From: Treponema sp.
GTDB taxonomy: Bacteria; Spirochaetota; Spirochaetia; Treponematales; Treponemataceae
Direction of reading: 5' to 3'
Length of the DNA: 36,372 nt
Assembly (NCBI GenBank): GCA_017617145.1
Contig: JAFZWX010000106.1
Location: 1 to 36,372 of the forward strand
Shown: positions 2,774-35,000 of the stretch, piece after piece
Position numbering within the stretch: the first letter of the stretch is position 1
Layout of the letters: each line of letters begins with the position of its first letter
The notes under the pieces: generated by a model
Told to the model about the DNA's origin: nothing
The model's input: only the letters and a program-made list of their open reading frames with translations
Database searches by the model: none
Position numbers and translations under genes: made by a program

Positions 2774-3609
2774 CTATTTTACTTTATAAGCTTGATTTGG
2801 AGTATTAGGTCTATCTGGATACAAAAGAGATAGGTCTGTGCCCAACATTTCAGAAAGAATTTCCTTTCGTAAATATTCTTCGCTCTTATTTAAAATACCT
2901 GCAAGTTCTTTTCGTGTTCTTGGTTTTATTTTACAAAGTTCAATAATAATGGATTTTATCTCATTTTGCGAAACTTTCTTACCAAATTTTGAGATTCGTT
3001 CTTTTATATCGTCTGGAATATCTACTTGGGAGGTTTACTTGGGAGGTTTCGTCTGAAACTGGAATGTTTCCCGCATCCCAAGAAAACTCATCATTCAAAG
3101 GAACAGTAATTCTAAATACATCGCTTTCATCAAAAACAGGATCTGTCCCCGAGTATTTTTCTGAATACATAAATAACTTTCTAACACCAGAACCAAGCTT
3201 ATCGGAATAACCGATATTTCTAAAGAAATTAGCAATAATAGGGTTCTTTGGATATAGTATTACATTTTCTGGAGTAATTAAGCCATCTTTTTTAGCACGA
3301 TTTGCATTTTCGACAAACATCTTGTCTTTTTCTATTACAAATCTAGCCTAAAAGCATAACCGCAGCAAGATTGAAGCCTTGTTGACCTGTAACTCTATCT
3401 TCTGTAAAAAGTCTGGCTTTAACCTCTTTTTCTACTGATGTAGGTTTATATTCCTTATTCTTTCTTTTTGTCTGGAAATACTTTGCCACAAACTTAAAAT
3501 CACTCTTGAACATATCAATTGTCAGGAGCTTTTGTGAGGATTTTGCATTAAGTAATTCATTATGCTTTACCTCCGCCTCAATTATAATTCCAGGTCGAAG
3601 ATAAATCAT
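2774..3609 (-). pseudogene. Broken AlbA_2/RecG-like ATP-binding regulator
   Basis: Three pieces of one protein type lie in order. 3609-3343 ends with TEDRVTGQQGFNLAAVMLLG, the junction after the AlbA_2 domain. 3346-3050 carries IEKDKMFVENANR and YPKNPIIANFFRNIGYSDKLGSGVRKL, the hallmark of the HATPase_c_4 part. 3050-2774 reads SQVDIPDDIKERISKFGKKV, then a winged-helix-like tail. Intact relatives of roughly 480 residues have about 120-130 more residues between the first two pieces, so an internal deletion plus frame change is inferred. The second break is a 13-base tandem duplication. The N-terminal AlbA_2 domain is largely missing, so the gene is almost certainly non-functional. Confidence 0.75.
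3024..3049. repeat. 13-base tandem duplication that shifts the frame
   Basis: The 13-base unit ACTTGGGAGGTTT stands twice, at 3024-3036 and 3037-3049. Thirteen is not a multiple of three. Removing one copy restores an uninterrupted reading from SDETSQV straight into DIPDDIKERI of the regulator tail. Confidence 0.85.
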
Positions 3610-3616
3610 TAAACTA

Positions 3617-3728
3617 TTACTTTAATTTCTCAGGCTTTCGTAAACCTTGTCGAGTATATTCAACAAATACTGTGCTATATTGTCTTGTATAATCGACAAA
3701 ATTGGATAAGTCAATTGGAATATAAGTT
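3617..3728 (-). other. Coding-like remnant between mnmE and the regulator remnant
   Basis: Directly after the mnmE stop, a frame without a start codon reads TYIPIDLSNFVDYTRQY, then VFVEYTRQGLRKPEKLK and a stop at 3617-3619. It looks like the C-terminus of a real protein but is not recognised. It probably belongs to the decayed insertion that occupies 3610-2323. No terminator for mnmE is visible here. Confidence 0.3.
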
Positions 3729-5174
3729 CTACTTTCCTACGCAGAAATTAGCAAAAATAGAACCAAGAACATCGTCTGGGGTTATGGCACCGGTTACTTC
3801 GGCAAGGGAATCTAAGGCGTCTTCGAGATCCTGGACTACGGCATCGAGAGAATAATTGTCGGCGGCTGTGGCAAGGGCGTGCTTTGTGCATTCAAGGGCT
3901 TCGGAAACAGCGTCTTTCTGGCGGGCGGAACCAAGGCCTGCCTGAGTACGCTCTGTTGAAAGACCGTGTTTTAAGATGGTTTCGATTTGGGTGAAGAGGT
4001 CTGAAAGGCCGGTGCCGGTTTTGGCGGAGATGGAGCAGACAAGAGATTGTCGGGTCAAGCCCGACAATGACACACTTTCATTACTCGACAATGACACACT
4101 TATGTCATTCCCCGGCTTGACCGGGGAATCCATGTCTATCTTTGTCCAAACAACAATAAGTGGCACGGTGCAGGTTTCTATAAATTCCTTGTCTTCGTCA
4201 TTCATGCCTTCTACGGAATCTATTAAATACAAAACGACGTCTGCATCGTGGACGAGGTTGCGGCTTATTTCTACGCCTTTGGCTTCTATTACATCATCTG
4301 TCTGGCGAAGACCTGCGGTGTCGAACAGGCGCACTGGTATTCCGTTTATGCCGGCCCAGCTTTCGAGCCAGTCGCGGGTGGTGCCTTCTATGTCGCTTAC
4401 AATGGCACGCTCTTCTTTTAGGATTGCGTTAAAAAGCGAAGATTTTCCGGCGTTAGTGCGGCCTGCCAATACTACGCGGGCTCCGTCCTGGTAAAGTTTT
4501 TCGCCCTGCCAGGAGGCTTCAAGCGAAGAAAGTCGTTCAACTGCCTTCTCTAAATCTGCTTTATCAAAGGTGTCGGCAATTGTTTCTTCATCTTCGGGAT
4601 ATTCAATTTCTACTTCAATTGCGGCAAGTGTGTCTACCAGAAGTTTTTTTATTGAATCAATTTCGGCATAAAGAGAGCCTGCAAGTCGACCGGCGGCGTG
4701 ACTTCTGGAATCATCGGTGTGGCTGTCTATAATTTCACGAACTGCTTCGGCTTTGGTTAAATCTGTTTTGCCGTTTATGTAGGCACGGAAGGTGTACTCT
4801 CCTCTGTTTGCCTGACGGAAGCCGGAACGCAGCATAAGATTTTGTATTGCAGTTACAACAGAAGGACCACCGTGGCAGAATATTTCGACCATGTCTTCGC
4901 CGGTGTAGGATTTTGGAGAGCGGTAGACGGCGCACATGACTTCGTCGATCTTTTGAACGTGGATTGCTTCGCCTTCGGCTCGCAATGACGTAATCCAGCC
5001 ATAGACAATTGTGTTGCCTTTTGCTTCTAACAGGGCGCGGGGGCGGGAAAAGACTTTGCTGACCAATTCAATGCAACCTTTGCCACTAACCCGCACTATT
5101 CCTAAAGCTGCGGGTGCCAATGCTGTTGCAATTGAGGAAATTGGTTCATCAGGTGTGTACTGGTCCAGTGCCAT
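3729..5174 (-). CDS. mnmE: tRNA modification GTPase MnmE (TrmE)
   Basis: MnmE works with MnmG to make the 5-(carboxymethyl)aminomethyl group on wobble uridine 34 of certain tRNAs. The 481 residues show the N-terminal folate-binding domain (SSIATALAPAALGIVRVSG), the RGEYTFRAY motif, and the G domain: GRTNAGKSS at 238-246, EGTTRD 263-268, DTAG 285-288, TKID 344-347 (TKxD instead of NKxD) and SAKTG 382-386. The catalytic tail FCVGK closes the protein. Odd: residues about 349-378, between TKID and SAKTG, are an insert built from palindromic repeats (VKPGND and LSGLTRQSL) that remain in frame. The gene starts 2 bases after the DUF4015 stop, so the two are likely co-transcribed. Confidence 0.97.
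   Translation of the reverse strand: MALDQYTPDEPISSIATALAPAALGIVRVSGKGCIELVSKVFSRPRALLEAKGNTIVYGWITSLRAEGEAIHVQKIDEVMCAVYRSPKSYTGEDMVEIFCHGGPSVVTAIQNLMLRSGFRQANRGEYTFRAYINGKTDLTKAEAVREIIDSHTDDSRSHAAGRLAGSLYAEIDSIKKLLVDTLAAIEVEIEYPEDEETIADTFDKADLEKAVERLSSLEASWQGEKLYQDGARVVLAGRTNAGKSSLFNAILKEERAIVSDIEGTTRDWLESWAGINGIPVRLFDTAGLRQTDDVIEAKGVEISRNLVHDADVVLYLIDSVEGMNDEDKEFIETCTVPLIVVWTKIDMDSPVKPGNDISVSLSSNESVSLSGLTRQSLVCSISAKTGTGLSDLFTQIETILKHGLSTERTQAGLGSARQKDAVSEALECTKHALATAADNYSLDAVVQDLEDALDSLAEVTGAITPDDVLGSIFANFCVGK
4045..4071. repeat. Palindromic repeat copy A, inside mnmE
   Basis: The stem TTGTCGGG (4047-4054) pairs with CCCGACAA (4060-4067) around TCAAG, and a GAC follows. The core is the same as the copies at 18396 and 19366. 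It encodes LSGLTRQSL on the minus strand in mnmE. Confidence 0.85.
4062..4101. repeat. 24-base direct repeat beside the palindrome in mnmE
   Basis: CGACAATGACACACTT stands at 4062-4077 and 4086-4101, a 24-base offset that keeps the reading frame. The second copy includes part of the palindromic element only. Confidence 0.7.
4104..4131. repeat. Palindromic repeat copy B, inside mnmE, inverted to copy A
   Basis: ATTCCCCGG (4107-4115), loop CTTGA and CCGGGGAAT (4121-4129) form a perfect 9-base stem. It is the inverted, base-compensated version of copy A and encodes DSPVKPGND in mnmE. Confidence 0.85.
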
Positions 5175-18395: not shown

Positions 18396-18422
18396 GATTG
18401 TCGGGTCAAGCCCGACAATGAC
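18396..18422. repeat. Palindromic repeat copy C, intergenic
   Basis: Same sequence as copy A: TTGTCGGG, TCAAG, CCCGACAA, followed by a GAC. On the minus strand the stem is followed by CTTTTC, so it may also act as a weak terminator after the rlmM-like gene. Confidence 0.8.
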
Positions 18423-18435
18423 ATAGATGCATTTG

Positions 18436-18505
18436 AGGCGTGATTGGCAGGCTGCGGACAAACTCCCCCTTTGCCCTGTTTGTCCGCGGACTGTTAATCA
18501 CGCCT
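18436..18505. repeat. Nested inverted repeat at the end of the rlmM-like gene
   Basis: Two concentric perfect 10-base stems are seen. The outer pair is AGGCGTGATT (18436-18445) with AATCACGCCT (18496-18505). The inner pair is GCGGACAAAC (18454-18463) with GTTTGTCCGC (18478-18487). They are separated by 8 unpaired bases on each side, with a 14-base loop. The stop codon of the rlmM-like gene lies within the outer arm. No T-run follows directly. It could protect the transcript end, terminate together with copy C, or be a small mobile insertion. Confidence 0.7.
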
Positions 18506-19607
18506 CCTTATGTATAAATGTCAATTCGTGTTTATTATAATTTAAGTGTACAATTTTCGAATCTGGTATATCCGCAAATTGCCGGATGAGACCCCAGTCA
18601 ATGGCGCCCTGCATTTTGATGGTGCAGATCATATGTTTGGTCAAGCCGCTGTCTAGCCAAATGTGAATCCATTCTAAGAGGCGTTCGGGGTAGCAGATTA
18701 CGTCGGAAAAAACCCAGTCTACCTGCCCTACTTCTTCTGGTTTAATTGTAAAAGCGTCGTGGGCACGGAACTGGACAAGCGGATTTTTCATAAGTTCCGG
18801 GGCTAATTCTGCACGGTCAACGGCATAAACTTGTGCGCCAAGACCTGCTAAAACCCAGGTCCATCCACCAGGGCATGCTCCTGCTTCAAAACATTTTTGT
18901 CCCGGGGCAGGAAGACCACAACCAAAATAAAAATCGGCAAGCGTAAGACTTTCCTGAATTTTAAGGTATGCACGGCTTGGAGGATTTTCGTGGTCTTCTA
19001 TAAAACGCAAAGTTCCGGCAGGCAGCGGAGAAGTTGTTGCTGCAGACGCAATAATTGTATGTTCATCAAGTAAAGTATAAAGGCCCATAGGTGAGTCTGG
19101 AATTGTAAACGGAAACTTACGCTCTTTTAAATTAATATATGGAAGCTTTTCTTGAATGAGTTCTGCCCTTCTGAAGCATGTAAACTGATACGGTGCCCAG
19201 TTGCGTTGGATTTCTTTAAGGGCAGCCGCGGCTTCGCCAATGGAATCGAACTTAAGCATGAAAGGTTCCAGCATACAGGTACGCGCCCAGTAAGGAAAAG
19301 CACCACCAGAGGCTTTTAGAAAAGCAGTTTTGTCCGGGAAGTAGAGAAGGTCATTATAAAAGAGAGATTGTCGGGTCAAGCCCGACAATGACATAGTGTC
19401 ATTCCCGAATGCAACTGTGTCATCCCCGAGTGCAACTGTGTCATTCCCGGGTGCAACTGTGTCATTCCCGGGTGCAACTGTGTCATTCCCGGGCTTGACC
19501 CGGGAATCTGTTATGCAAAACCTATCTTTTAATTCAGAAGAGAGAAAATCTTTTTGTTCTGGAAAAGCAAGAAAACCAATTCCGTTGAGTTTTTGAATAG
19601 AAGTCAT
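18498..19607 (-). CDS. RlmM-like SAM-dependent rRNA 2'-O-methyltransferase with repeat insert
   Basis: The 369-residue protein resembles RlmM, which methylates C2498 of 23S rRNA. The C-terminal Rossmann fold shows motif I FEAGACPGGWTWVLAGLGA (about 240-258), VYAVDRAELAPEL, DWVFSDVICYPERLLEW and a catalytic-type Lys in CTIKMQG (Lys331). The middle part (about 85-215) corresponds to the RNA-binding THUMP region. Residues about 36-82 are an insert of four 7-residue repeats (DTVAPGN-like) flanked by translated palindromic elements (DSRVKPGND and LSGLTRQSL). The ATG at 19607 has no clear ribosome-binding site. Neighbours are PilZ (23 bases upstream) and rlmE. Exact target specificity is not proven. 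Confidence 0.85.
   Translation of the reverse strand: MTSIQKLNGIGFLAFPEQKDFLSSELKDRFCITDSRVKPGNDTVAPGNDTVAPGNDTVALGDDTVAFGNDTMSLSGLTRQSLFYNDLLYFPDKTAFLKASGGAFPYWARTCMLEPFMLKFDSIGEAAAALKEIQRNWAPYQFTCFRRAELIQEKLPYINLKERKFPFTIPDSPMGLYTLLDEHTIIASAATTSPLPAGTLRFIEDHENPPSRAYLKIQESLTLADFYFGCGLPAPGQKCFEAGACPGGWTWVLAGLGAQVYAVDRAELAPELMKNPLVQFRAHDAFTIKPEEVGQVDWVFSDVICYPERLLEWIHIWLDSGLTKHMICTIKMQGAIDWGLIRQFADIPDSKIVHLNYNKHELTFIHKEA
19366..19392. repeat. Palindromic repeat copy D, inside the rlmM-like gene
   Basis: Identical core to copies A and C, in frame, encoding LSGLTRQSL on the minus strand. It bounds one side of the repeat insert in the rlmM-like gene. Confidence 0.85.
19396..19508. repeat. 21-base tandem array ending in palindromic repeat copy E
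   Basis: Four 21-base units start at 19396, 19417, 19438 and 19459; units three and four are identical. Each begins GTGTCAT(T/C)CCCG and ends TGCAACT. A fifth unit at 19480 runs into the palindrome ATTCCCGGG (19485-19493), CTTGA, CCCGGGAAT (19499-19507). The units look like iterated copies of the first half of the palindromic element. Because 21 is a multiple of three, they encode a 7-residue repeat (DTVAPGN and variants). Confidence 0.9.
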
Positions 19608-20021: not shown

Positions 20022-23000
20022 CTATTTTACAACAAGAACTTTTCGGGTTTCGTCAATGCCCGGGCCTGTTACACGAATAAAGTACATACCTCTTGCAACA
20101 GCATTTCCCCTGCGGTTTGTTCCATCCCAGGAATAGAAATGTTCACCTGCTTCTGAACTTCCACGGTGAAGATAATCAACAATATTTCCGTCGAGCGTCA
20201 TTACAAGAACAGTAAGATTTCCTGCTTCTGCCTGATTAACCTTTATTACAACTTTTTCTCGTTTTGAAGAATTAATTGCATTATTAAGAATTGTTACTCC
20301 ACCGCGCTGTGAAACATTTGATTTCAATTTAAATGACCACAAATCAAGCGAAAGAAGATTTTCTGGTTCTGTAAGTCTGAGCGCATATAAAGGCATCTTT
20401 ACAGAAGTTGTAAGATACTGCATGTCATTGTTTATATCGAGTACCGGCGAATGCATTATTGTTACAGGAGTACCATCACTGTTAGTTAATCCAAACAAGA
20501 AAGAAACCTGATCTCCTGCCGACCATTCATCTGCCATTTCTTTACTGATATCAAAAATAAACTGTGGATTAGTTTTACCAGTCTGCGGAGTTTCTAAAAC
20601 AGTTCCATCAACAAAAGAGTAATTATTATTGTTTGTTTCTGACAGTGCAGTAAATACTGTTCCCATTACATCTGGCAACCAGATTCTCCATTTTGGATCT
20701 GGTTCAAGGTCTTTGTTATATTGAGTCGAAACAGCTGCAGCCAGAGGCTTATTAGTAAGATAAAGTCTGAAATTCTGAACTTCTTCATCGCTGGTATCGG
20801 CAACAATTGCAATTGAACGATCTGCAGGAAGTGTTCCGTAATTATTCTGATCTCGATTCCAATCATGTACCGCCCAGCTTGTTGTATCTGTAAAGCCGGT
20901 ATCATCAGACATATTCTGATGATAAAGACCGTCCGAAATTATAGAACCGTCATCGTTTGTCATAGAAGAATCATAAGCATAAAGAGGTTTAATTGCTTCT
21001 ACTGCAAAATCCGAAAGCGCATGAGCTGTATACATCTGCAAAGAATTTCCTTTTGCATCCTGAATGAAGGTTACGCGGGAATTCTTGTGGTTTGTAAATT
21101 TATCTATTGAATATTCACCATAATTTTCATGATATTTTACTCTAAGGTGAAGAGTCTTAATATCGTCAAGAGTAATTTCGCGGTTAAGCTTAAGTCTTAT
21201 TATTGTAAATGAAGAACCATATGCATTCTGCTTAATACTTATTTGTGCCGGAACTCTTGTATCAACCTGTAAATCATCAGCTACTGACGGTGCACCTGAA
21301 GAATCAATTTTAATAAAATCAAAGCATCCGGTTATAAGAGAAGCAAAATCTTCTGTGATTGTCTGTTCCTGTCCGCTATCGTTATTAATATAATCAAGAT
21401 CACTGCTGTCTGTTCGCAATTCCTTTACAAAAACAATTTCAAGTTCATCGCCGCCAACCGGACAAACTGTTAAATCAAAGCTTGGAGGAGTTCGGTCAAT
21501 TGTTGTAATTGTCTTTGAGCGTAATCTGTTTCCGGCAAGGTCAGTAATAAAGCCCTTGGTATCATCGTATTTAATCTTAAACGAGGTTGTAATATCAAGA
21601 GTTTTATTCTTTAAAGGAAGTGCAAAATACAAACCTTCACAATCGGCAGCAGAACGACGAGGAGCAGAAAGACCTGTGAAAATCAACGAAGCACCACCTG
21701 CATAAACAGGAGCTGTTGTATCAAATTCAAGATTTACAAGAGATTCAGGAACTGTTGTTCCAATTCCATATTTAAATGCTTTTGCACTGTCGCTTATGGT
21801 ACTGAATCGTACACCTCCCGAAGTACGGCGTGCATTATCTGAAGCTGTGTTTCCATCAAATGGTCTTGCGCCACCAAAAATATCTGCAGCATAAGTATAT
21901 GATTTATAAAGATCACTCTTTTCACCGTCGGAATTTTTAACGCACCAGCCTGTTTCTGTAAACCATTCCGGCTCATTCTGGCCCGCTTCAAAATCTGGAG
22001 TATTGTCAAAAATATGGAATTCAATTCTGTCGAGTGTTGAACCAACTCCCGAGTTATTACCTATAACTTCTGCTTCATAAACACCCTTAAAAAGTTCGGA
22101 ATCCCATTTTTGTGTTGCGTTGCTTCTTATAACAGCAAATACCGGTTCAGACAGATCCCATTTTCCATAAAGGCCATCCTCTGTGCTGTTTACAACCGGA
22201 ATTGTATTATAGATATCTGAACCCGAAGTTGACAAAGAATATTTTATCTGGCAATTACCCTGCAGGTCGGTTACAAGCTCATTTTTGTTGTTTGAATCAA
22301 CAAGATGATTTACAGTTCCAGAAGGCATTTTTGCTTCTTCTATATAACCAACCCATTTTTTATATGAATGACCGTCTGCATCTGTAACAGTTCCGTCTGT
22401 ATAACCTGCAATACTAAGACAAATTGAATACTCATCTTTACGGTAAAGGGCATTAACATAAGGGTCATCCTGAGCTTTTCCATTTGAACCTTCGCTGCCT
22501 GTATAAACCAAGCCTTTTTCAATTATTCCAAGACCTGCAATTGTAAGATTATCTTCCTGTCTGATATTTTGAATTTTACCAAAAGTATCTGTTACACGGA
22601 TATTTTCTACAATATCATATGCAGCAATAGAAGCAGTCTCTCCAAAGTTTACTGGTTCTGAGTATCTGAATTCAATAAAGTTATGAGAATCATAGGAATG
22701 CTCACTTGCTTCACCTATAGCTGTGTCATAAGCAGAATGAAGTTCCTGACCTGTGCGAACCTTCCAAAGAACCGGACCAGTTTTATCGTCAACAACAAAA
22801 GTATCATCACTTGATTGATTTGAACCATAAGCAGCCTCGGCATTAGTTCCTTTTACTACACGACGGCTATAATTGTTAAGACGTTTACCCCATCTGTCTG
22901 TCAGAACAAATGCTGTGTTTCCAAGCGCTCTAGGGAAGTCAAGACATGGTTTTGTTTCATGATGAATTCCTGCACGGTCTGTGCTTATTGAACCGGCAGA

Positions 23001-26000
23001 AGATGTTTGTGTTCCCCAGACTTTACCCGTTGCATCGGTGTTCCAGGCTCCAAACTCAGAAGAATCCTGAGGTGCGGCTTTTATATAAAAATATGACAAT
23101 TCCGTGTCATATTTTAATTCGTTCTGACAATCAGGATCAGAATACAAGCCTGTAAAATCACAAACAGGTGCCGAAACTGCATCATGGAATTTTAACAATT
23201 CAACTGACTCGCTGTGATATCGTACCGGGCGATTGAATTCAACTCTTATAGAATTGTCGCGTTCGGTATAAGCAGTTGTAATTACAAAATCATCAAAATC
23301 AACATTTGTGTTTTCAACTGCACTTGTTCCTTCATCAACACATTCAAGTGCAACAAGACGAGCCTTTGAACCATCTGTGCTGCCATTACTGCAAATAACC
23401 TTACATCCCGAAATATAAGAATGATAAGCTTCTGCAAAGGCATTAGCAGCATTTGTCAAATCTGGAACCTTGAGAATCCACTGACCGCTTGCACCGTTTG
23501 CCGAAAGTCGTGTTCCGTTAGCATAGAAGTTCTTTGCAATAGAAACTGTTTGACCGGCTTGAACAGCAAGAGTTGCAGAAAAATCTTGTGGTACTGCAGT
23601 TCCATCAGGAAGCGAGGTTTCATTATAATTTGGCTGGCTCCAGGTTTGAGGGCGCGCACAATAATATGAATATTCGTTTACAGAACCTGTTGTTGTATCG
23701 GTTGTAGAATAATCCTGTCCAAGAATTAAAACATCCTGGCTAGCTGTAATATCGCCATTCAAAATAACTGCACCATTATAAAGAACAACATTTTTGGCTT
23801 TTGTTATTTTTGCATTAATTGTTAAAGGAGCAGCCGGTAAAGCCTGTCGCACAATAATAAGATTTTTATCTGCTGTTGGTACCTGGGTACCAGCTGTCTC
23901 TCCTGTGCCAATTGTGATTACCTGTCCGCTTGTACCAAAATCAGCAGCTTCGGTTCCATAAATTTGAACATCTGTGGCAAAACCCGCAGGACCGTTTCCT
24001 GTAAAGCTTCCGCCAATTACAGAATTACCTGTTCCGTTTTGTGTAAATGTCCTTTCAGAAGCATCAACACTTGTATCAGTACCAAAAGCAAAATCCTTTC
24101 CATTTTCGGTTTTGAACAATCCAGAGTTTGTTATTGTTACAGAATTTTCTGCAGCAAAATCTTCTTCAAGCGTTATATTGTGACCCTTTAATACTACAGT
24201 TGTGCCATTTGTCTGACCAAGAGAAATATCTTCGGCTTCAATCGTACCAGCAATAACTGTTGCCGCAAGCGTAACATTTTTTTCTGGAACAAAAAGCTTG
24301 CCATAAATTTCTGTATTTCCGGCGGTGTGAATAAGATTTGTTCCTACAGACATTACAGGATTTTCGATTGATGAAGTATTACCTGAATCTCCGAACTCAA
24401 CTGTACCGGTGGTTTTAAATGTATCTTGTTTTATTGTATTTATTACACCACCCTTCTTAAAGATTACATTTCCACTTTCTGTAAAATCGGTAAAGGTATC
24501 AATGTTTACGACATCTTTGAAAAGTGTTTCTGCCGCACTTGTAAGCTGTAACTCATGAAAAGCATTACCAGCCTGTTCACCAGCTGCAGGAGTTCCCACA
24601 GTTCCATTGAATACAATATTATTTGTGCCTGCAACAAAATTCAGTTTTTTATTTCCGTTTACAGAAGAACCAAAGCTTATAGTTCCAAGCGTGATTTCAA
24701 GAGTTGTATCAGAAAGAATTTCTACCTGTTTATTGTAAGTCTGATTTTCTGCTGTTTTGATTTTTGCACAGTTAATATCAGCTTTTTGAGTATCGATTGT
24801 ATCTACAGTTACGTTTCCATTAAAGGTTGCTTTTGCCGCTGTTTTGAGTGATGTAAGATTTGTGATTGTATCATCAAAAGTTACGGAACCTGTTTTTGTT
24901 TCAAGTGAATATGCTCCAGAAAGCGGTTTTTCAAAAATGAGTTTTGCTGTGTCGGCTGCGTCTGTTGTTATGATTGTATTTGTAAGAAGCTCTACCGGCT
25001 GATTAAAGGTTGCGCTGTTTACTGTAATTGAATCACAGTTAATTTTTGTATTTGCATCTACAATGAGATTCTGAGTTGCCGTACTTGCGTTTTCAACATT
25101 TGCGTTGAACTGAACTGTCTGATATTCGTTGGCAGCATTTTTTGCAGTAAGAGTTATGTCGCCTGCTTTGATTAAAGTTACTTCGCCGTTATATGTCTGA
25201 TTTCCTGATGTTGTTATTGATTCACAATTTATTTTTGCAATTTGTGTGTCTATTGTTCCTGCTGTTACATCTCCGTTGAAGGTTGCAGCAGCCGCTGTTT
25301 TGAGTGATGTAAGATTTGTAATTGTATCGTCAAATTTTACAGAGCCAGTTACAGTTTCAAGTGAGTGATTGCCAGAAAGTGTATCTTTAAAAATAAGTGT
25401 TTCTGATTCACCGGCATCAGTAGTAATTATTGTATTGCTTAAAAGAGTAACTGCTTTTTCAAAAACAGCATTTTGTGCCGTAATCGACTCGCAATTGATT
25501 ATTGCAAACTGAGTATTCAAAATTCCAATATTTATTTCATCATCAAAAGTTGCAGTTGCGGCTGTTTTTAAAGATGTCAGACCAGTAATTGATTTTTCGA
25601 ATTCTACAGAGCCAGTTACAATTTCAAGCGAAGCGTTTCCGGTAATTACATCATTAAAGAGAATTGTGTCTCCTTCTGGAGCAGTAAGCTTTGTGTTGCT
25701 TGTAATTGAAACAGCTTTTTTATAAGTTTGATTAGCTGTAGTCAAAATTGAAGCCGTATTTATTGTAAGCGGTGCATTTATTGAAAGTTCTGCGCCCTGT
25801 ACATTGCTGTTTAATATAAGTGCGTCTGCAAGAATGTTGTTTTCAAGGAAGATTGCGGCGCCTCCACTGCCAGTTCCGTTCAAGGTTACTGTTCCGGCGT
25901 TTACAGAAGTTGCAGCTGCTTCTGTGTCATTTCCAATTATTACTTTATCTATAAACACATTTGAAGCATTATTAAGTGTTACAAATTTTCCGGTGCCTGC

Positions 26001-29000
26001 TGTAATTGTTGTGATATTATTTACTGTAATTTTTTCTGCTATATCAACAGATGCGTTTATATGAAGCTTTTCATATTGCTTACCAGCTTGAGGTGTATTA
26101 CCTTCTCCATCCCAGGCAAAATTTGTAATTGTTGCAGAGCCTGTTTCATCATAATATTCAACAGTTGAATCGGTACCGTTTATCATAATGCCGCTGATTG
26201 TCTGACCGTTAGAGCCATTAAGACGAACAAGTCCATTATTTGTAATTGTTCCAACTGTAAGATTCTGGTCGGCTAAATCAAAACGTGCGGCTGCTTCAAC
26301 AGTTATTGCTCCGTTGTAGGCTTGCGAAGTTGTTCCATAAGTATCATTCAAATCAAGAGGAACTGTTAGTTTAGGATAACTTGGCTTGTTTGCAGCAATT
26401 GTAACAACAGCACCCTTATTTGGAACAGAAGCAGGACTCCAGTTTTCTTTTGTATTCCAATCTGTATTATTTGCTCCATTTCCACCAATCCAGGTGTAAG
26501 GCATGTTAGGGAAATTCCAGTTTACATTGTTTCCTCTGTCGTAACTGCTCAAGGCAAAAAGATTGTATGCAAAATCCGGATCGTCCGAAGGTGATGTGTT
26601 AGAGATATTATTTGAATCCTGAACATCAACATACTGAATTTTGTGATTGTTTGTACCGGTACATTTTATTGTCCAGGCAGTCCCTGTCGTTGAAGAACGA
26701 AGAGAAAGCATATTGTTATCTTGAGCTGCAGTTCCCATTAATGTAAGAAGACCACTTACAGTTTGAGTTTTTCCAGCAGCAAAAGTAATAGTTTTTCCGC
26801 CAAGACCTGTTGTATCGTCACCGGCAGTAAGATTAACAATGTTGTTGCTTCCTGTAATAGTCACTGAGTTTGTAAACACTAAATTATTAAAGCTGTTATT
26901 TCCCTTTAAGATTGCAGCAGGAGATGCAGTAGTTTTATTTGCAGCTGTAAGAATTATTGTTCCGTTATTTGCGGCAAGCGTATCGTCTGCTAAATCAACA
27001 TCGGCATTAAAGGTTGTTGTACCGGAAGAAGCAGTGAGTTTTGAGTTTGTCTCTGTCGTGATGTTAGGCTCTGCTAACACATCATCTGGCGTCAATGAAA
27101 TATTTTTAATAGTTTCATCAATAACAACAGTTTTTCCAACGCCATTTATTTTTGGAACATTCAGATTTATGAATGTATTATTTTCTGTTTCTAATGAAGT
27201 TGAGTTCTGTATAAAAATCAGTTCGCCAAGAGTGATGTTTGCAGTGGCATCTGTGGCAATTATGCTTTTAAAAATCGGAGTATCTATTGTAAGTTTCTTT
27301 CTGGTTGCTGCTGCAGGGTCATCGGTGATATTTGATTTATAATTGATCTGGGTTTCCGCAGCAAGAGTTGTGTCAGAAAGAATTTCCACCTGTCCGTTGT
27401 AGGTTTGAGTTCCGGTTGTAGTTATAGTTTCGCAGTTGATTTTTGCAATCTGAGTTTCAAGAACTCCTATGTTTACGTTTCCGTTGAAAGTTGCGGTTGC
27501 AGCTGTTTTAAGTAATGTAAGGTTTGTAATTGTATCGTCAAAAGTTACGGAACCTGTTTTTGTTTCAAGCGAATATGCTCCGGAAAGCGGCTTTTTGAAA
27601 ATGAGTTTTGATGTGTCGGCTGAGTCTGTTGTTATGATTGTATTTGTAAGAAGCTCTACCGGCTGATTGAAAGTTGCACTGTTTACTGTAATTGAATCAC
27701 ATTTGATTTTTGTTTTTGCATCAACAATGAGGTTTTGTGTTTCTGTATTGTCATTTCCGACATTTGCGTTGAACTGAACTGTCTGATAAACATTAGGTTC
27801 AGCAGAAGTATTCTTTGCTGTAAGAGTTATGTTGCCGGCTTTGATTAAAGTTACTTCGCCGTTGTAGGTTTGATTTCCGGTTGTGGTGATTGAGGCACAG
27901 TTGATTTTTGTTTTTGCATCAATAATAAGATTTTGTCTTCCTGTGTCTGATTTTCCAACATTTGCGTTGAACTGAACTGTCTGAAGTTCATTTCCTGCAT
28001 TCTTTGCGGTTAGAGTTATATCATCATTTTTCTTGAGTGTTACCGTTCCGTTATAGGTTTGATTTTCTGTTGTTTTAATTGTTGTACAGTTGATTTCGAC
28101 AGGGCCATTCAGGGTAAGAGTCTTGAGTGCTGTTGTCGCTCCTACATTTCCGTCAAAGGTAATCATGTATGAATCAGAAGAAAGTGTCAGAATATCATCT
28201 ACGTCATCAGATTCAGGATTTGTTATTATTCCGTTGATTGTTCCGTTGTATTTTTGAGTACCGTTTGTATTTATGTTTGCAGTTCCATTGATAATCAGAT
28301 TATCAAGTTCGAGAGCCGCAGTATTTAGTGTTCCACTTATTATTGTATTTGAATTTTTTGCTGTAACAGAATGCTTGAAATTTGCATAATCCGGACTTGT
28401 ACCAATGTTCATTGTGCCGGTTATAGAAACTTCATCTGGAGTATTAAATGTCACCGCATTCTGAATTGTTCCCCCGTTCTGGAAAATAATATTTCCTGAG
28501 TCTTCGGTATCTTCAAATGTTCCGATATATACAGCCTTTTCAAATTTTGTTTCCCTGGAACTTGTTATATGCAGTTTCCCAAGTGGATTACCTGAAGTTC
28601 CTGCTGTGCCTTTGAAAAGTATATTCTTTTCACCTGCTGTTATGGTTAAAGTTTTATTTCCATATACATTAGCATCTGCATTTGTAAATGAAACCCCGCC
28701 GTTTGTTGAGGAAGCTGTAAGATTCAGATTTTGTTCAAACTTAAGTGAATCTTCAAATGTAAGACTTTCACCTGTTGAACTTATGGTAACTGGATTTTCT
28801 TCAGAAATTACTTCTACTTCTTTTTTATAAATCTGATATCCATTTGTTGTTATTGAAGCACAATTGATTTTTGTTTTTGCATCAACAATGAGGTTTTGTG
28901 TTTCTGTATTGTCATTTCCGACATTTGCGTTGAACTGAACTGTCTGATATTCATTAGGTTCAACAGAGGTGTTCTTTGCTGTAAGAGTTATGTTGCCGGT

Positions 29001-32000
29001 TTTGATTAAAGTTACTTCGCCGTTGTAGGTTTGATTTCCGGTTGTTGTAATTTTTTCACAATCAATATTTGCATAACCGGTTACTTTAAGCGAAGCAAGT
29101 TCTGTATCTTCTCCTACATCTGCTCCAAATGTTGTACCATCATTTGAAGTTGTAATCAGTTCCAATTCTGCAGCACCATTAATAGTTGAACTTGCATCAA
29201 AGTTTATACTACCGGCAGACAATTTATGAGGAGAATTTGTTGTACTTAATGTTATTGCTCCACTGAAGTTCTGTGCCCCTGAGGTATAAATGGTTGAACA
29301 TTCAATCGTTGAAGGACCTGTTACTTCAAGAGTCTTGAGTGCTTTTGTCTGACCTACATTTCCGTTGAAAGTTATCAAATTAGAATTTGAATTGAACCTT
29401 AAAATATCATCGGCATCATTCGGAGTTGTTTCTATTCCGTTGATTGTTCCATTGTATGTCTGAGTACCATTTGTATTTATGTTTGCAGTTCCATCTACAA
29501 TGAGATTGTTCATTTGTATAGATGGTGTTATGAGGGTGCCTGTTAAAGTTATATAGTCAGGTGTATTAAAGGTTGTACCATTTGTATTTGTAATATTTCC
29601 ACCGTGCTTAAATGTTATATTTCCTGAGTCTTCGGTATCTTCAAATGTTCCGATATATACAGCCTTTTCAAATTTCGTTTCACCGGAACTTGTTATATGC
29701 AGCGTTCCAAGTGGATTATCTGAAGTTCCTGCTGTACCTTTGAAGAGTATATTCTTTCCGCCAGCTGTTATGGTTAAGGTTTTATTTCCATATACATTTG
29801 CATTTGCATTGGTAAATGAAACTCCGCCGTTTGTTGAATCATCAGCAGAAAGCTCCAGATCCTGCTCAAGCTTTAGGTCATCTGCAAAAGTAAGGTTTCC
29901 ACCTGTTGAACTTATTGTTGGCTTGCTTGCCGAAGAGACTGTTACTTCACCGTTGTAAGTTTGATTTCCATTTGTTGTAATTGCCGTACATTTGATTTCT
30001 ACAGGACCTGTTACTTCAAGAGACTTTAGAGCTGTTGACTGACCTACATTGCCGTTGAAAGTTATCAGAGTAGAATTGGAATTAAGTTTTAAAATGTCAT
30101 CAGCATCATTCGGAGTGTTTTCTATTCCGTTGACTGTTCCGTTGTATGTCTGAGTTCCTATTGTATTTATATTTGCAGTTCCATTGATAATCAGATTATC
30201 AAATTCGAGTACTTTTGCATTAAGTGTTCCTGTTATGTTTGATGGACCTGCGGTATGTTTAAGATCTGCATAAGGTGAAGTAGTTCCAATATTCATTGGA
30301 CTTTCAGTTGTACCTGTGATTGAAACTGTTCCGGTTGTATTGAAAGTCACCGCATTCTGAATTGTTCCGCCGTTCTTAAATGTTATATTTCCGGAATCTT
30401 CTGTATCTTCAAAGGTTCCGATATATACAGACTTTTCAAATTTTGTTTCACCGGAACTTGTTATATGCAGCGTTCCAAGTAGATTACCTGAAGTTCCTGC
30501 TGTGCCATTGAAGAGTATATTCTTTCCGCCAGCTGTTATGGTTAAGGTTTTATTTCCATATACATTTGCATTTGTTTTAGTAAATGAAACCCCGCCGTTT
30601 GTTGAATCGTCAGCAGAAAGATCCATATCCTGTTCAAGTTTAAGTGAATCTGCAAAAGTAAGGTTTCCGCCGGTTGAACTTATCGTTGGCTTGCTTGCCG
30701 AAGAGACAGTTACTTCACTGTTGTAGGTTTGATTTCCATTTGTTGTTATTGAAGTACAATTGATTTTTGTTTTTGCATCAACAGTGAGTTTATGAGTTCC
30801 TGTATCCGGGATTTCTACATTTGCATCAAACTGAACTGTCTGATATGCATTAGAAGAATTCTTCGCTGTAAGAGTTATATCATCTTTGAGTAAAGTTACT
30901 CCGCCTTTATAGATTTGATTTCCCGTTGTCAAAATTGAAGCCGCATTTATTGTAAGCGGAGCATTTATTGTAAGTACATCACCTTGCACATTACTGTTTA
31001 ATGTGAGACTGTTTGCAAGAATGTTGTTTTCGAGGAAGATTGCAACTCCTCCACTGCCAGTTCCGTTCAAGGTTACTGTTCCAGAGTTTACAGAAGAAGT
31101 TGAATTTCCAATCTTTACATGATTAGCAAAAACATTCGAAGCATTATTAAGATTTGCACTTGTTTTTATTGTTGTTAATCCAGAAACATCAAGTACTTCG
31201 GTATCTGGCTGTGTAATTTCTTCATTTATGATTAGATTTACATACTGCTTTCCTGTTGTGTTGGCACCGTAATCTCCATCCCATGCAAAACTTACAAATG
31301 TTCCGCCACAATACTCAACTGTTGAATCATCTTCATTTTTCATTTTGCCAGAAATCTGATTTGATGTTCCAACAAGTTTTATATGTCCATCATTAATGAT
31401 TTCTCCAACAGTCAACTGCTGATCTGCTAAATCAAAAATTCCTGTAACTGTGATTTTTCCCTCGTAGTTTGTAGAACCAAAGCTTTCGTTAAGATTAAGA
31501 GGCTCAGTTAAAACAGGATAAACTGTTGCTCCACTGATTGTTACAGTTCCAATAGTTACATCAGCGCCAATTCCAGGTACAGAACCTTCGTACCAGTTAT
31601 CTGGTTCATCCCATGCTGTATTATTTTTAGGTGCAACAGCTGCCCCTGTCCAGGTATATTCTTGTCCCGGGAAATTCCAGTTTTTGTTGTTTCCGCTGTC
31701 GGTACTATTAATGGCAAAAAGCTTGTAAAGAGTTGAATTGTATTCAGAAACATTGTTTGCATCCTTTACATCAACATACTGAATATCGTGACTGGTTGAA
31801 CTTGGAGCGGTACATTTAATTGACCATGCAGTTCCATCAGTAGTAGAACGAAGAGAAAGCTTATTCGTAGTAGAACTTCCTGTCAATGTAAGTTTGCCTG
31901 CAACTGTCTGAGTATTTCCTTCTGCAAACTTAATTGTTTTGCCGCCGAGCCCTTGAGCAGTAAGATTGTAGAAGGTTGATTTTCCTCCTACAGTGACTGT

Positions 32001-35000
32001 ATCTATAGTATCTGCCGGAGCAAGAATAACAGTTCCGTTTGAATGTTTAAAAGTGCCGTCTGCAAAATCAAGGCTGGCTTTGAAAGTCATTTTGTCAGTG
32101 TCTGTGCCCGAAGGTGCCGTAAGCGTTGTTCCGGTTTCTGTTTTAATACTTGGTTCAATTGCAACATTTCCAACAAACGAAAGTTTTGTTCCGGAAGATG
32201 ACAATGTAACTGTTTTACCATTTCCACTTATTGTTGGAACTGTAAGCCGTATTGGTGCGCCATTTGCACTTTGGATTTCTGTATTCTGTGAAAAAGCCAG
32301 TTCATTACATTGTATAGTTACAGTAGGCGGATTTTCAGGATCGGCAACTGCGGCAGTGCTTTTGAAAGTTGGTGAGTTTATTGTGAATGTTATTGACTTT
32401 GTTCCTGATTCTGAAATATTTCCAGAAAAATCAATTTCAGCTGCTTCCAATAAAACTGCATTTGATGTTGAGTTAGAATGAAGAATTATGTCTCCATTAA
32501 AAATCTGATTTTCCGTAGTTGCTATTTTTGTACATTTAATATTTGTTTTACCAGTAATCGTAAGAGACTTAAGTTTAGTTGCGTTTGTTTTTCCAACATC
32601 TCCATTAAAGGTTACGGATTTTCCATTATCAACTTCAATAGTTAAGGCTTGATTATTACTTACATTTGCATAAGTTGTTGTACCGTTTGATGTTGTATTT
32701 TCAAAAGCAACATTACCATGGGCAACAAGCTTTGTTGTTCCGGTAAGGTTAGTTTTATTCAAGGTTATATCGGCAGCAGTTAAAGTTCCTTTGATATCTG
32801 TAGGACCAGCGGTGTGAACTAAATCACAGTATTTTGTATTTGATTCATTATCAACATAAAGAAAGTTTGCGCCGTTTTGGAATGCGACTGTATTCGTTGT
32901 ATTAAAAGAAGAAGTTTTTATTGTAACAAGATTTGCGAAAGCTATATTTCCAGCAGAAACTAATAAATCTGTAATGTTACAACTTCCCGTTACTGTAAGA
33001 GTTTTGTCATTAGATTTATCTTCTTTTATTTTTGTATACGTGCCAGTTCCTGCAGCAAAAGTCTGATCGTTTGTGCCATTAAAAATCAAATAACCGTCGC
33101 CGTCTGTATTTCCAGTTGAGGTTAGATTTCCTTTTATTTCTACATCTGATGAAAATGTAACTGTTCCGCTTGCAATATTGAGATTTTCGTAAACATCGGA
33201 CCAGCAAGGAGTTGTTGTGCCATCGTAAATAATAGTACTACCGGGGCCATTTGTTCTTGTTGTTGCGGTAAGTGAGCCACCAGCAAAAGTGAGTTCTCCA
33301 TTATTTGTAATTGAACCAGAATATGTAGAATCATAAATTAATGATACATCAGCAGAAAGAACCGGATAATATGTTTTTCCTGCTGGAATTAAAACTATTG
33401 CACCTGAAGCTGGAACTGAACAAGCGGCTAGAGATTCACCAACTCCCCAGTTTGCTGCTGTATTCCAATCAGTTTTTTCAGCATCGGTTGAGCCACTACC
33501 ACCCTTCCAAATGTACTCAACACCATCAAAAATCCAGTTTGTATTATTGCCACTGTCGGTGCTGTCAAAAGCAATGAGTTTATAGGCAGTAGCTGCATCC
33601 TCTGATGTGTTAGAAATATTATTTGCATCCTTTACATCAACATACTGAATATCGTGGCTGGTTAAACTTGAAGCGGTACATTTAATTGACCATGCAGTTC
33701 CATCAGTAGTAGAACGAAGAGAAAGCTTACTTGTAGCAGAACTTCCTGTCAACGTAAGTTTACCTGCAACTGTCTGAGTATTTCCTTCTGCAAACTTAAT
33801 TGTTTTGCCGCTGAGATTTTCTGCTTTAAGATTGTAGAAGGTTGATTTTCCTCCTACAGTGACTGTACTTACATTGTTTGCCGGGGCAAGAATAACAGTT
33901 CCGTTTGAATGTTTAAAAGTGCCGTCTGCAAAATCAAGGCTGGCTTTGAAAGTCATTGTATATGGATTTGTTTCTGCGCCAGAGGATGGTGCCGTAAGCG
34001 TTGTTCCAGCTTCAATTTGTATGCTTGGCTCGATTTCGACATTTCCAACAAACGAAAGTTTTGTTCCGGAAGATGACAATGTAACAGTTTTTCCACTTCC
34101 ACTTATTGTTGGAACTGTAAGCTGAATAGGCGCGCCATTTGCACTTTGAATTTCTGTATTCTGTGAAAAAGCCAGTTCATTACATTGTATAGTTACAGTC
34201 GGCGGATTTTCAGGATCGACAACTGCGGCTGTGCTTTTGAAAATTGGGGTATCAATTGTAAGTGTTTTACCGTTACCAGAAATGTTTCCGGCAAAATCTA
34301 TTTCGTCTTTTACAGAGATAGTAATGTCTTCAACATTGATATTTGCATTACACTCAAGAACAGCATCTGTGGCAGAACCAGTTACATCTTTTTTGAATGT
34401 CACCGTACTTGCCGTAAACGTTGCCGATTTATTAAATGTCACAGTTCCGTTATAAGTCTGATTTCCGTTAGTTAAAATAATAACTGGTGAACTCTCGCTT
34501 TCTATTTTTACATCACCGTTCACAACCAGAGTTGTATTCGCTGAAGTATTTCCTGTAACATTCTGTTTAAAAAGGATCTCTTTATTTTCAGGAGTTTCGC
34601 CCGAGGTTTTTGCATTAAGAGTTGTACTTTTTTTAAGGATGACCTCGCCTTCGTAAATTTGATTTCCGGTTGTATTAATATAGTCACAATTTATATTTGT
34701 TATTCCAGTCACCTTAAGCGATTGAAGTTTTTTGTTTTCTTCAGTTCCGACCTCGCCATTAAAGGTGGTTGATTTGCCGTCGCCATGCGTTGTTATTGTT
34801 AATTCATTTTCACCAAAAACCTTTGCGTAAACAGTTGGATCTGTTGGTGAATCGTTTTCAAAAACAACATCTCCATAGGCTTCAATAGTTGTATTACCTT
34901 TGAGTTCGGTTTTACTCAGAGTGACATCGGCAGCAGTTAAAGTTCCTTTGATATTTGTAGGACCAGCGGTGTGAACTAAATCACAGTAATTTGTATTTGA

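Follow-up and report, generated by a model that had tools for sequence, protein, structure and literature searches.

The window analyzed here, a stretch of 36,372 nt from Treponema sp., carries on its minus strand (3729..5174) the CDS of a 481-aa MnmE (mnmE, or trmE), recognized by NCBIfam TIGR00450 at 347 bits and by Pfam TrmE_N, MMR_HSR1, and MnmE_helical. The protein has the features by which membership of MnmE is judged, namely TrmE_N, a G domain with G4 and G5, the helical domain, and a C-terminal Cys motif (FCVGK); its frame is uninterrupted over the 481 aa, and the nearest named database proteins are MnmEs of Treponema MAGs. Downstream of the gene, the region 2900–3700 contains a single ORF of at least 100 aa (113 aa) and may hold decayed genes.

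The segment from G4 (TKID) to G5 (SAKTG) reads MDSPVKPGNDISVSLSSNESVSLSGLTRQSLVCSI, and the linker within it (residues 348–382; 4029..4133, minus strand) is filled by a short hairpin repeat, here called F1. One copy (4045..4071, minus strand) has a TGTC tag and a CTTGA loop and is read as SLSGLTRQS, and an inverted copy (4104..4130, plus strand) gives the coding-strand peptide DSPVKPGND; the two hairpins lie in opposite orientation, and in both of them all 9 stem positions pair around a loop of 5 nt. A 15-mer, AGTGTGTCATTGTCG, recurs in the linker at a spacing of 24 nt (4062..4100, minus strand) and encodes SVSLS twice. Folded as DNA, the 103 nt of 4036–4138 reach −22.1 kcal/mol against a mean of −9.56 for shuffled sequence (z −5.1), and none of 200 shuffles folds as well. 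With two perfect hairpins, a repeat, and an open frame, the palindromic elements that a preliminary description placed in frame between TKID and SAKTG are confirmed. Its figure of about 30 extra residues holds for the repeat-derived part. The window linker, however, is 35 aa long, whereas several linkers without a repeat in its clade measure 12–20 aa (L004 14, L009 12, L015 12, L034 18) and those of many outlying Treponema 24–25 aa, so that the repeats have in part taken the place of an earlier linker.

A second repeat-filled site, overlooked in that description, lies in the N-terminal domain at residues 62–74 (loop1; 4953..4991, minus strand), where the insert reads TSLRAEGEAIHVQ and contains a palindrome of another type, F3 (4962..4988, minus strand; translated SLRAEGEAI), preceded by CGTC. 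In a predicted structure of modest quality (mean pLDDT 64.5, pTM 0.52) both inserts fall within low-confidence stretches, of which there are eight others; together with their loop position and an alignment to 1xzp and 3gee, this bears on their possible exposure to solvent.

The same repeats occur elsewhere in the window. An rlmM-like methyltransferase gene (18498..19607, minus strand; NF008734 (RlmM) at 89 bits, under the cut-off of 176; FtsJ PF01728) contains an F1 dimer and a 21-nt tandem array at residues 34–81 (19365..19508, minus strand), the two F1 copies being translated DSRVKPGND and SLSGLTRQS as in mnmE, and one further F1 copy lies between ORFs (18396..18422, minus strand). By coordinates, four of the five F1 copies in the window are inside genes, and all five have the TGTC tag. 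The tandem array between the rlmM-like hairpins (19396–19500; GTGTCATTCCCGGGTGCAACT type, 21 nt, about half a hairpin per unit) is read as VAPGNDT-type repeats. At the 3′ end of the gene, adjoining the intergenic F1 copy, is an inverted repeat (18435–18506; 29 nt, 86% complementary, 14-nt spacer) that is possibly a terminator. A minus-strand ORF of 5412 aa with many internal repeats (20022–36260) probably encodes a giant repetitive protein.

Two variable loops in Treponema MnmE

Both sites were followed through 81 Treponema mnmE genes, those of 80 relatives (the best 80 of 262) and that of the window. Two long blocks of the encoded proteins differ in length from gene to gene, and three more vary by at most 7 residues. 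Loop1, which follows YGWI, is most commonly 5 residues long and reaches 63, and the G4–G5 linker ranges from 12 to 83 aa. A pattern classifier for six repeat families detected them in the linker of 29 and in loop1 of 11 of the 81 genes; none of 2577 overlapping 110-nt windows from the rest of the same genes was positive. With composite linkers counted in each of their families, F5 was assigned to 22 linkers, F2 to 6 (that of L065 by a loose match), F1 to 3, F6 to 2, and F3 and F4 to 1 each; different families are thus read in frame at the same two places. F1, F3, and F4 have GTCAT-type ends in common and, judging from these ends, may be distant kin, so that ‘five families’ may represent fewer independent kinds. 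The F6 unit (GGGGACAG type) is expanded in the 83-aa linker of L032 and single in the 54-aa linker of L029.

The F5 and F6 patterns were composed from the linkers themselves, after these had been inspected, so that the counts of both families in mnmE are biased upward (F5 is present in 22 of the 29 positive linkers), and a pattern-free blastn test was therefore added. Against DNA outside mnmE at E ≤ 1e-5, matches were obtained for 12/81 linkers and 5/81 loop1 segments and for neither of two control segments (0/81 and 0/81). At E ≤ 1e-3 the linkers rose to 16/81 and the controls to 3 and 0, and at E ≤ 0.01, a less clean threshold, to 23/81 and to 7/81 and 1/81, respectively. An identical insert lacking palindromes throughout the genus, which the preliminary description had named as a refuting observation, did not turn up: the linkers of relatives contain palindromes of other families, differ in sequence, or are short, and orthologues with no element at the site were found (L004, L034).

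Occupancy of both loops has turned over between relatives. On a tree of the 81 MnmE cores, from which both loops had been removed, the family label changes at least 20 times for the linker and at least 10 times for loop1; the species are related, so that these and other counts over genes or genomes are non-independent. Within the window’s own seven-member clade (SH-aLRT 99), three linkers have F2, two have F1, and two have none. A larger FastTree tree of 201 rows, 120 of them extra database proteins labelled by peptide only, gave 68 and 40 changes, numbers that weak forks may inflate. Among 167 pairs at least 97% identical in the MnmE core, taken with these extra proteins included, 67 have disjoint linker labels, both linkers being filled in 59 of these; P0004 (F1) and P0020 (F3), for example, share 99.1% core identity. 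Such pairs need not be strains, given that L004 (both loops empty) and L051 (both filled) show 96.0% core identity and, over 11 kb of DNA, 86.8%.

Dispersal, anatomy, and reading frame of the repeats

The repeats are dispersed through the genomes in which they occur. Fifty related Treponema genomes, reached via their mnmE loci, were searched with the F1 pattern GTCATTSYCSGGCTTGACCSGRSAATC at up to 2 mismatches, and copies were found in 35 (229 in G002, 213 in G001, 185 in G048, and 126 in G014), with no match to the reversed control pattern in any of the 50. F2 numbers 230 copies in G001 and 211 in G048 (control 0), and the F5 core is present in all 50 genomes at 1–54 copies each, with no reversed matches. 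Generic GTCAT hairpins in the 81 stretches numbered 40, against 17 in mononucleotide-shuffled sequence, too few for a census.

Every counted F1 copy has an 8–9-bp stem starting AT and a loop of 4–5 nt, but these dimensions were imposed by the search. The tag was TGTC in 125 and CGTC in 1 of 128 distinct copies in the G002 stretches, most of which had been picked by a GTC-containing pattern, and F1 accordingly has the unpaired CGTC, TGTC, or CCTC beside the stem that characterizes CGTC-tagged REPs. The tail of three nucleotides is CTT, CTA, or CTC in 117 of the same 128 copies and CCA, as in those REPs, in 3; given this non-CCA tail, F1 is by its sequence CGTC-like only. In 34 of 43 pairs of neighboring F1 copies (≤120 nt apart, G002 stretches) the tags face each other, and head-to-head dimers therefore predominate.

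Most F1 copies read in related genomes fall outside genes, coding ORFs holding 5 of 128 in G002 (in three genes, mnmE included), 0 of 37 in G014, and 0 of 5 in G001. For F2, 100 copies were read in four genomes, and for 40 of these the ORF has coding scores on either side of the element; 33 of the 40 are in genes other than mnmE. In G001 the hosts are, among others, a beta-galactosidase that has taken three insertions, a GH43 enzyme, a class II tRNA synthetase, a pseudouridine synthase, and an ABC transporter; when ten host ORFs from G001 and G002 were scanned with Pfam, two had no family and one had a sub-cut-off match only. MnmE as sole host was rejected on these F2 copies in other genes, and the phenomenon is larger than the single case first noticed. 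Two ORFs of 474 aa, L291 (G001; a pseudouridine synthase by Pfam) and L388 (G005), carry F2-type elements in similar context and are possibly another recurrent F2 host gene. At the rlmM-like site, inspected by eye, F1 in the window is matched by an F3-type element in G001 and G002 and by short linkers in G004 and G005; the window and 4 of 30 loci could be parsed there, the flanks being too variable for precise junctions.

The preliminary description had stressed that mnmE and the rlmM-like gene read the element in one frame, and had regarded copies without frame preference as counting against its interpretation. A single fixed frame is not supported. Four frames of F1 and five of F2 are open, the sixth F2 frame containing a stop; the 33 F2 copies in coding ORFs outside mnmE use frames 11, 9, 8, 3, and 2 times (chi-square p 0.055 for a departure from equal use), the five F1 copies in G002 coding ORFs use three of the four open frames, and the F3-type element at the rlmM-like site of G001 (by eye) is in a frame that differs from the window’s. 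Any open frame seems to suffice, with a mild preference at most. Agreement between the two window genes is weak evidence because several frames are used elsewhere, and a near lack of preference, though largely what is seen, leaves the insertion itself untouched.

The clearest pair of filled and empty sites is L028, with an F1 hairpin, against L022 and L035, which read TTCATCACAATC. Two short strings of the empty site, TCAT and ACAATC, agree with the ends of the element; on balance L028 is longer by 18 nt, and this comparison shows no target duplication. Of 44 indels in 20 close pairs, 14 contain an element of a known family; inspected by eye, none of these has an evident target-site duplication, although most flanks have diverged too far for this to be firm. 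From one clean pair and a tiny sample, these observations suggest that insertion or exchange may proceed via short homology to the element ends. At an intergenic site, L013 (~8377) and L019 (~8353) have different palindromes and L012 has none, which suggests palindrome exchange.

Permissive loops as the probable explanation, and alternatives

There is good reason to think that mobile palindromes have recurrently colonized two permissive loops of MnmE in frame and been kept where the frame was open and the insertion harmless, and we hold this to be the probable explanation. Genomes of a gut (rumen-type) Treponema clade harbor several short palindromic repeat families, each at as many as ~230 copies, and copies would reach new sites with no evident target duplication, presumably via short homology to the element ends as inferred from the one site above. 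Within a gene, a copy would survive wherever it leaves the frame open and falls in a flexible loop. MnmE would supply two places of this kind, in the N-domain turn and in the G4–G5 linker, and at both the repeat family has switched often between related species as the rest of MnmE stayed conserved. The effect on MnmE would then be near-neutral, and the concentration of repeats in this gene would presumably reflect permissiveness of the loops rather than targeting. Der, a protein with two G domains, gave a full-length match in 27 of 30 genomes, and as the match spans 1308–1311 nt in all 27, that region is free of inserts.

A bolder version of this explanation, which we advance tentatively and think doubtful as it stands, is that certain protein loops act as exchange sites: the conserved ends of a hairpin that has landed (GTCAT, AATC) would let other palindromes replace it through short-homology template switching, and a small number of housekeeping proteins, MnmE first among them, would become genus-wide reservoirs of competing families, with new peptide segments under constant trial.

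It might instead be supposed that positive selection has diversified the MnmE loops for function, for example in escape from an MnmE-binding factor or in tuning of the GTPase or of MnmG binding. One protein houses both long variable loops, these turn over rapidly alongside a conserved core, and repeats are denser in mnmE than even between ORFs. Over the 81 stretches, 117 kb of mnmE contain 47 repeat clusters (40 per 100 kb), 62 kb between ORFs contain 11 (17.8 per 100 kb), and 680 kb of other CDS contain 11 (1.6 per 100 kb), although these densities share the bias of the F5 and F6 patterns toward mnmE linkers, and of the 11 clusters in other CDS some resemble chance matches or start-site errors and two belong to the rlmM-like insert. 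Against selection, F2 is found in mnmE mostly where F2 is abundant, carriers among the 50 genomes having more copies of it (p 0.0004) and the four F2-richest genomes (G001, G048, G005, and G002) all having F2 in mnmE. Exceptions occur in both directions (G004 with 69 copies and G047 with 40 have no F2 in mnmE, and G016 with 3 and G050 with 1 do), and G001, G048, and G014 are rich in F1 yet have no F1 in mnmE, so that case by case copy number predicts mnmE content poorly. Linkers of anything from 12 to 83 aa and the use of more than one frame by F2 are also what passive tolerance predicts, and the same repeats sit in other genes that have no common theme. We therefore regard selection for loop function as improbable.

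A different account of movement would have the palindromes mobilized by a Y1 tyrosine transposase, as REPs and REPINs are in REP–RAYT systems. The constant tag of the hairpins and their inverted dimers, seen in 34 of 43 pairs, do look REPIN-like, and Y1_Tnp (PF01797) was detected in 21 of the 50 genomes. It was not found by the PF01797 search in the four F1-richest genomes, though draft MAGs may miss genes; it occurs in 4 of 14 genomes with at least 20 F1 copies and in 17 of 36 with fewer, and genomes that have it contain fewer F1 copies (p 0.012). The tag is TGTC rather than the GTAG of REP–RAYT elements. Membership of the GTAG REPs was rejected on the tag and on the missing Y1_Tnp, RAYT mobilization of F1 was rejected on its absence from the F1-richest four, and this account is very improbable. 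Least credible of all is repeat-driven misassembly of metagenome contigs, to which the prevalence of MAGs among the sequences and the tendency of assemblies to break at repeats might point, since the inserts are also found in records titled for the named strains T. bryantii XBD1002, B25, NK4A124, and Treponema sp. JC4 (L006, L010, L014, L037) and all 81 mnmE genes keep G1, G2, the G4–G5 region, and the C-terminal CxGK within a single open frame.

Relation to known palindromic repeats

A search of titles and the beginnings of abstracts in the open-access literature found nothing on these Treponema repeats or on palindromic elements in MnmE. In Treponema, several families share two loops of one enzyme across dozens of species, with empty relatives alongside, and nature has thus performed an insertion scan of the MnmE loops. 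Comparing filled with empty sites could reveal how REPs with no known transposase move, and the loops offer an example of how short selfish DNA can give a conserved enzyme new segments. In practical terms, annotation will encounter the repeat peptides (SPVKPGND, SLSGLTRQS, VPEPVEG, SLRGAERRGNP) in many proteins.

Protein-coding palindromes have been reported from Rickettsia, Wolbachia, and some other genomes, in these accounts for the most part as isolated insertions here and there (Di Nocera et al. 2013, PMC3733652; PMC2229807). Correia, ERIC, and YPAL elements (PMC2229807) are likewise small non-autonomous repeats translated in frame, but they are described as ~100–200 bp long, with target-site duplication for several, and no such duplication is evident in Treponema. 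A closer precedent is recB of Xanthomonas campestris and X. oryzae, where different REPs occupy about the same gene position in related species (PMC3733652); two species are involved in that description, whereas the Treponema MnmE case extends to two loops and at least five families, with repeats in 29 of 81 linkers.

The likeness to the Rickettsia palindromic elements (RPEs) drawn in the preliminary description is right in kind, a dispersed palindrome being inserted in frame within conserved protein genes. In both cases palindromes stand in frame in conserved housekeeping genes and are apparently tolerated (PMC2229807, PMC3733652). The RPE for which a length is given (PMC2229807) measures 105–146 bp, whereas the Treponema elements are 27-nt hairpins, single or in inverted dimers, and they and other families recur at two loops of one enzyme in many species. 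RPE-6 and RPE-4 of R. conorii have been equated with CGTC-1 and CGTC-4 repeats (PMC3733652), and the parallel may be close, in that F1 and F3 by description resemble the CGTC class.

The CGTC/TGTC-tagged REPs themselves (Di Nocera et al. 2013, PMC3733652) share with the Treponema hairpins an unpaired CGTC or TGTC tag, head-to-head dimers, and some genic copies. They are also described with a 9-bp stem starting AT and a 5-nt loop, dimensions that the search imposed on the F1 copies counted here. Spirochaetes are among the phyla listed for them, and no dedicated transposase is reported in the sections that describe them. They differ in their CCA tail, that of F1 in G002 being mostly CTN, and in Treponema other families use the same sites. 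The Treponema elements, set beside RPEs by description, are thus RPE-like in kind and, save for the tail, CGTC-REP-like in anatomy.
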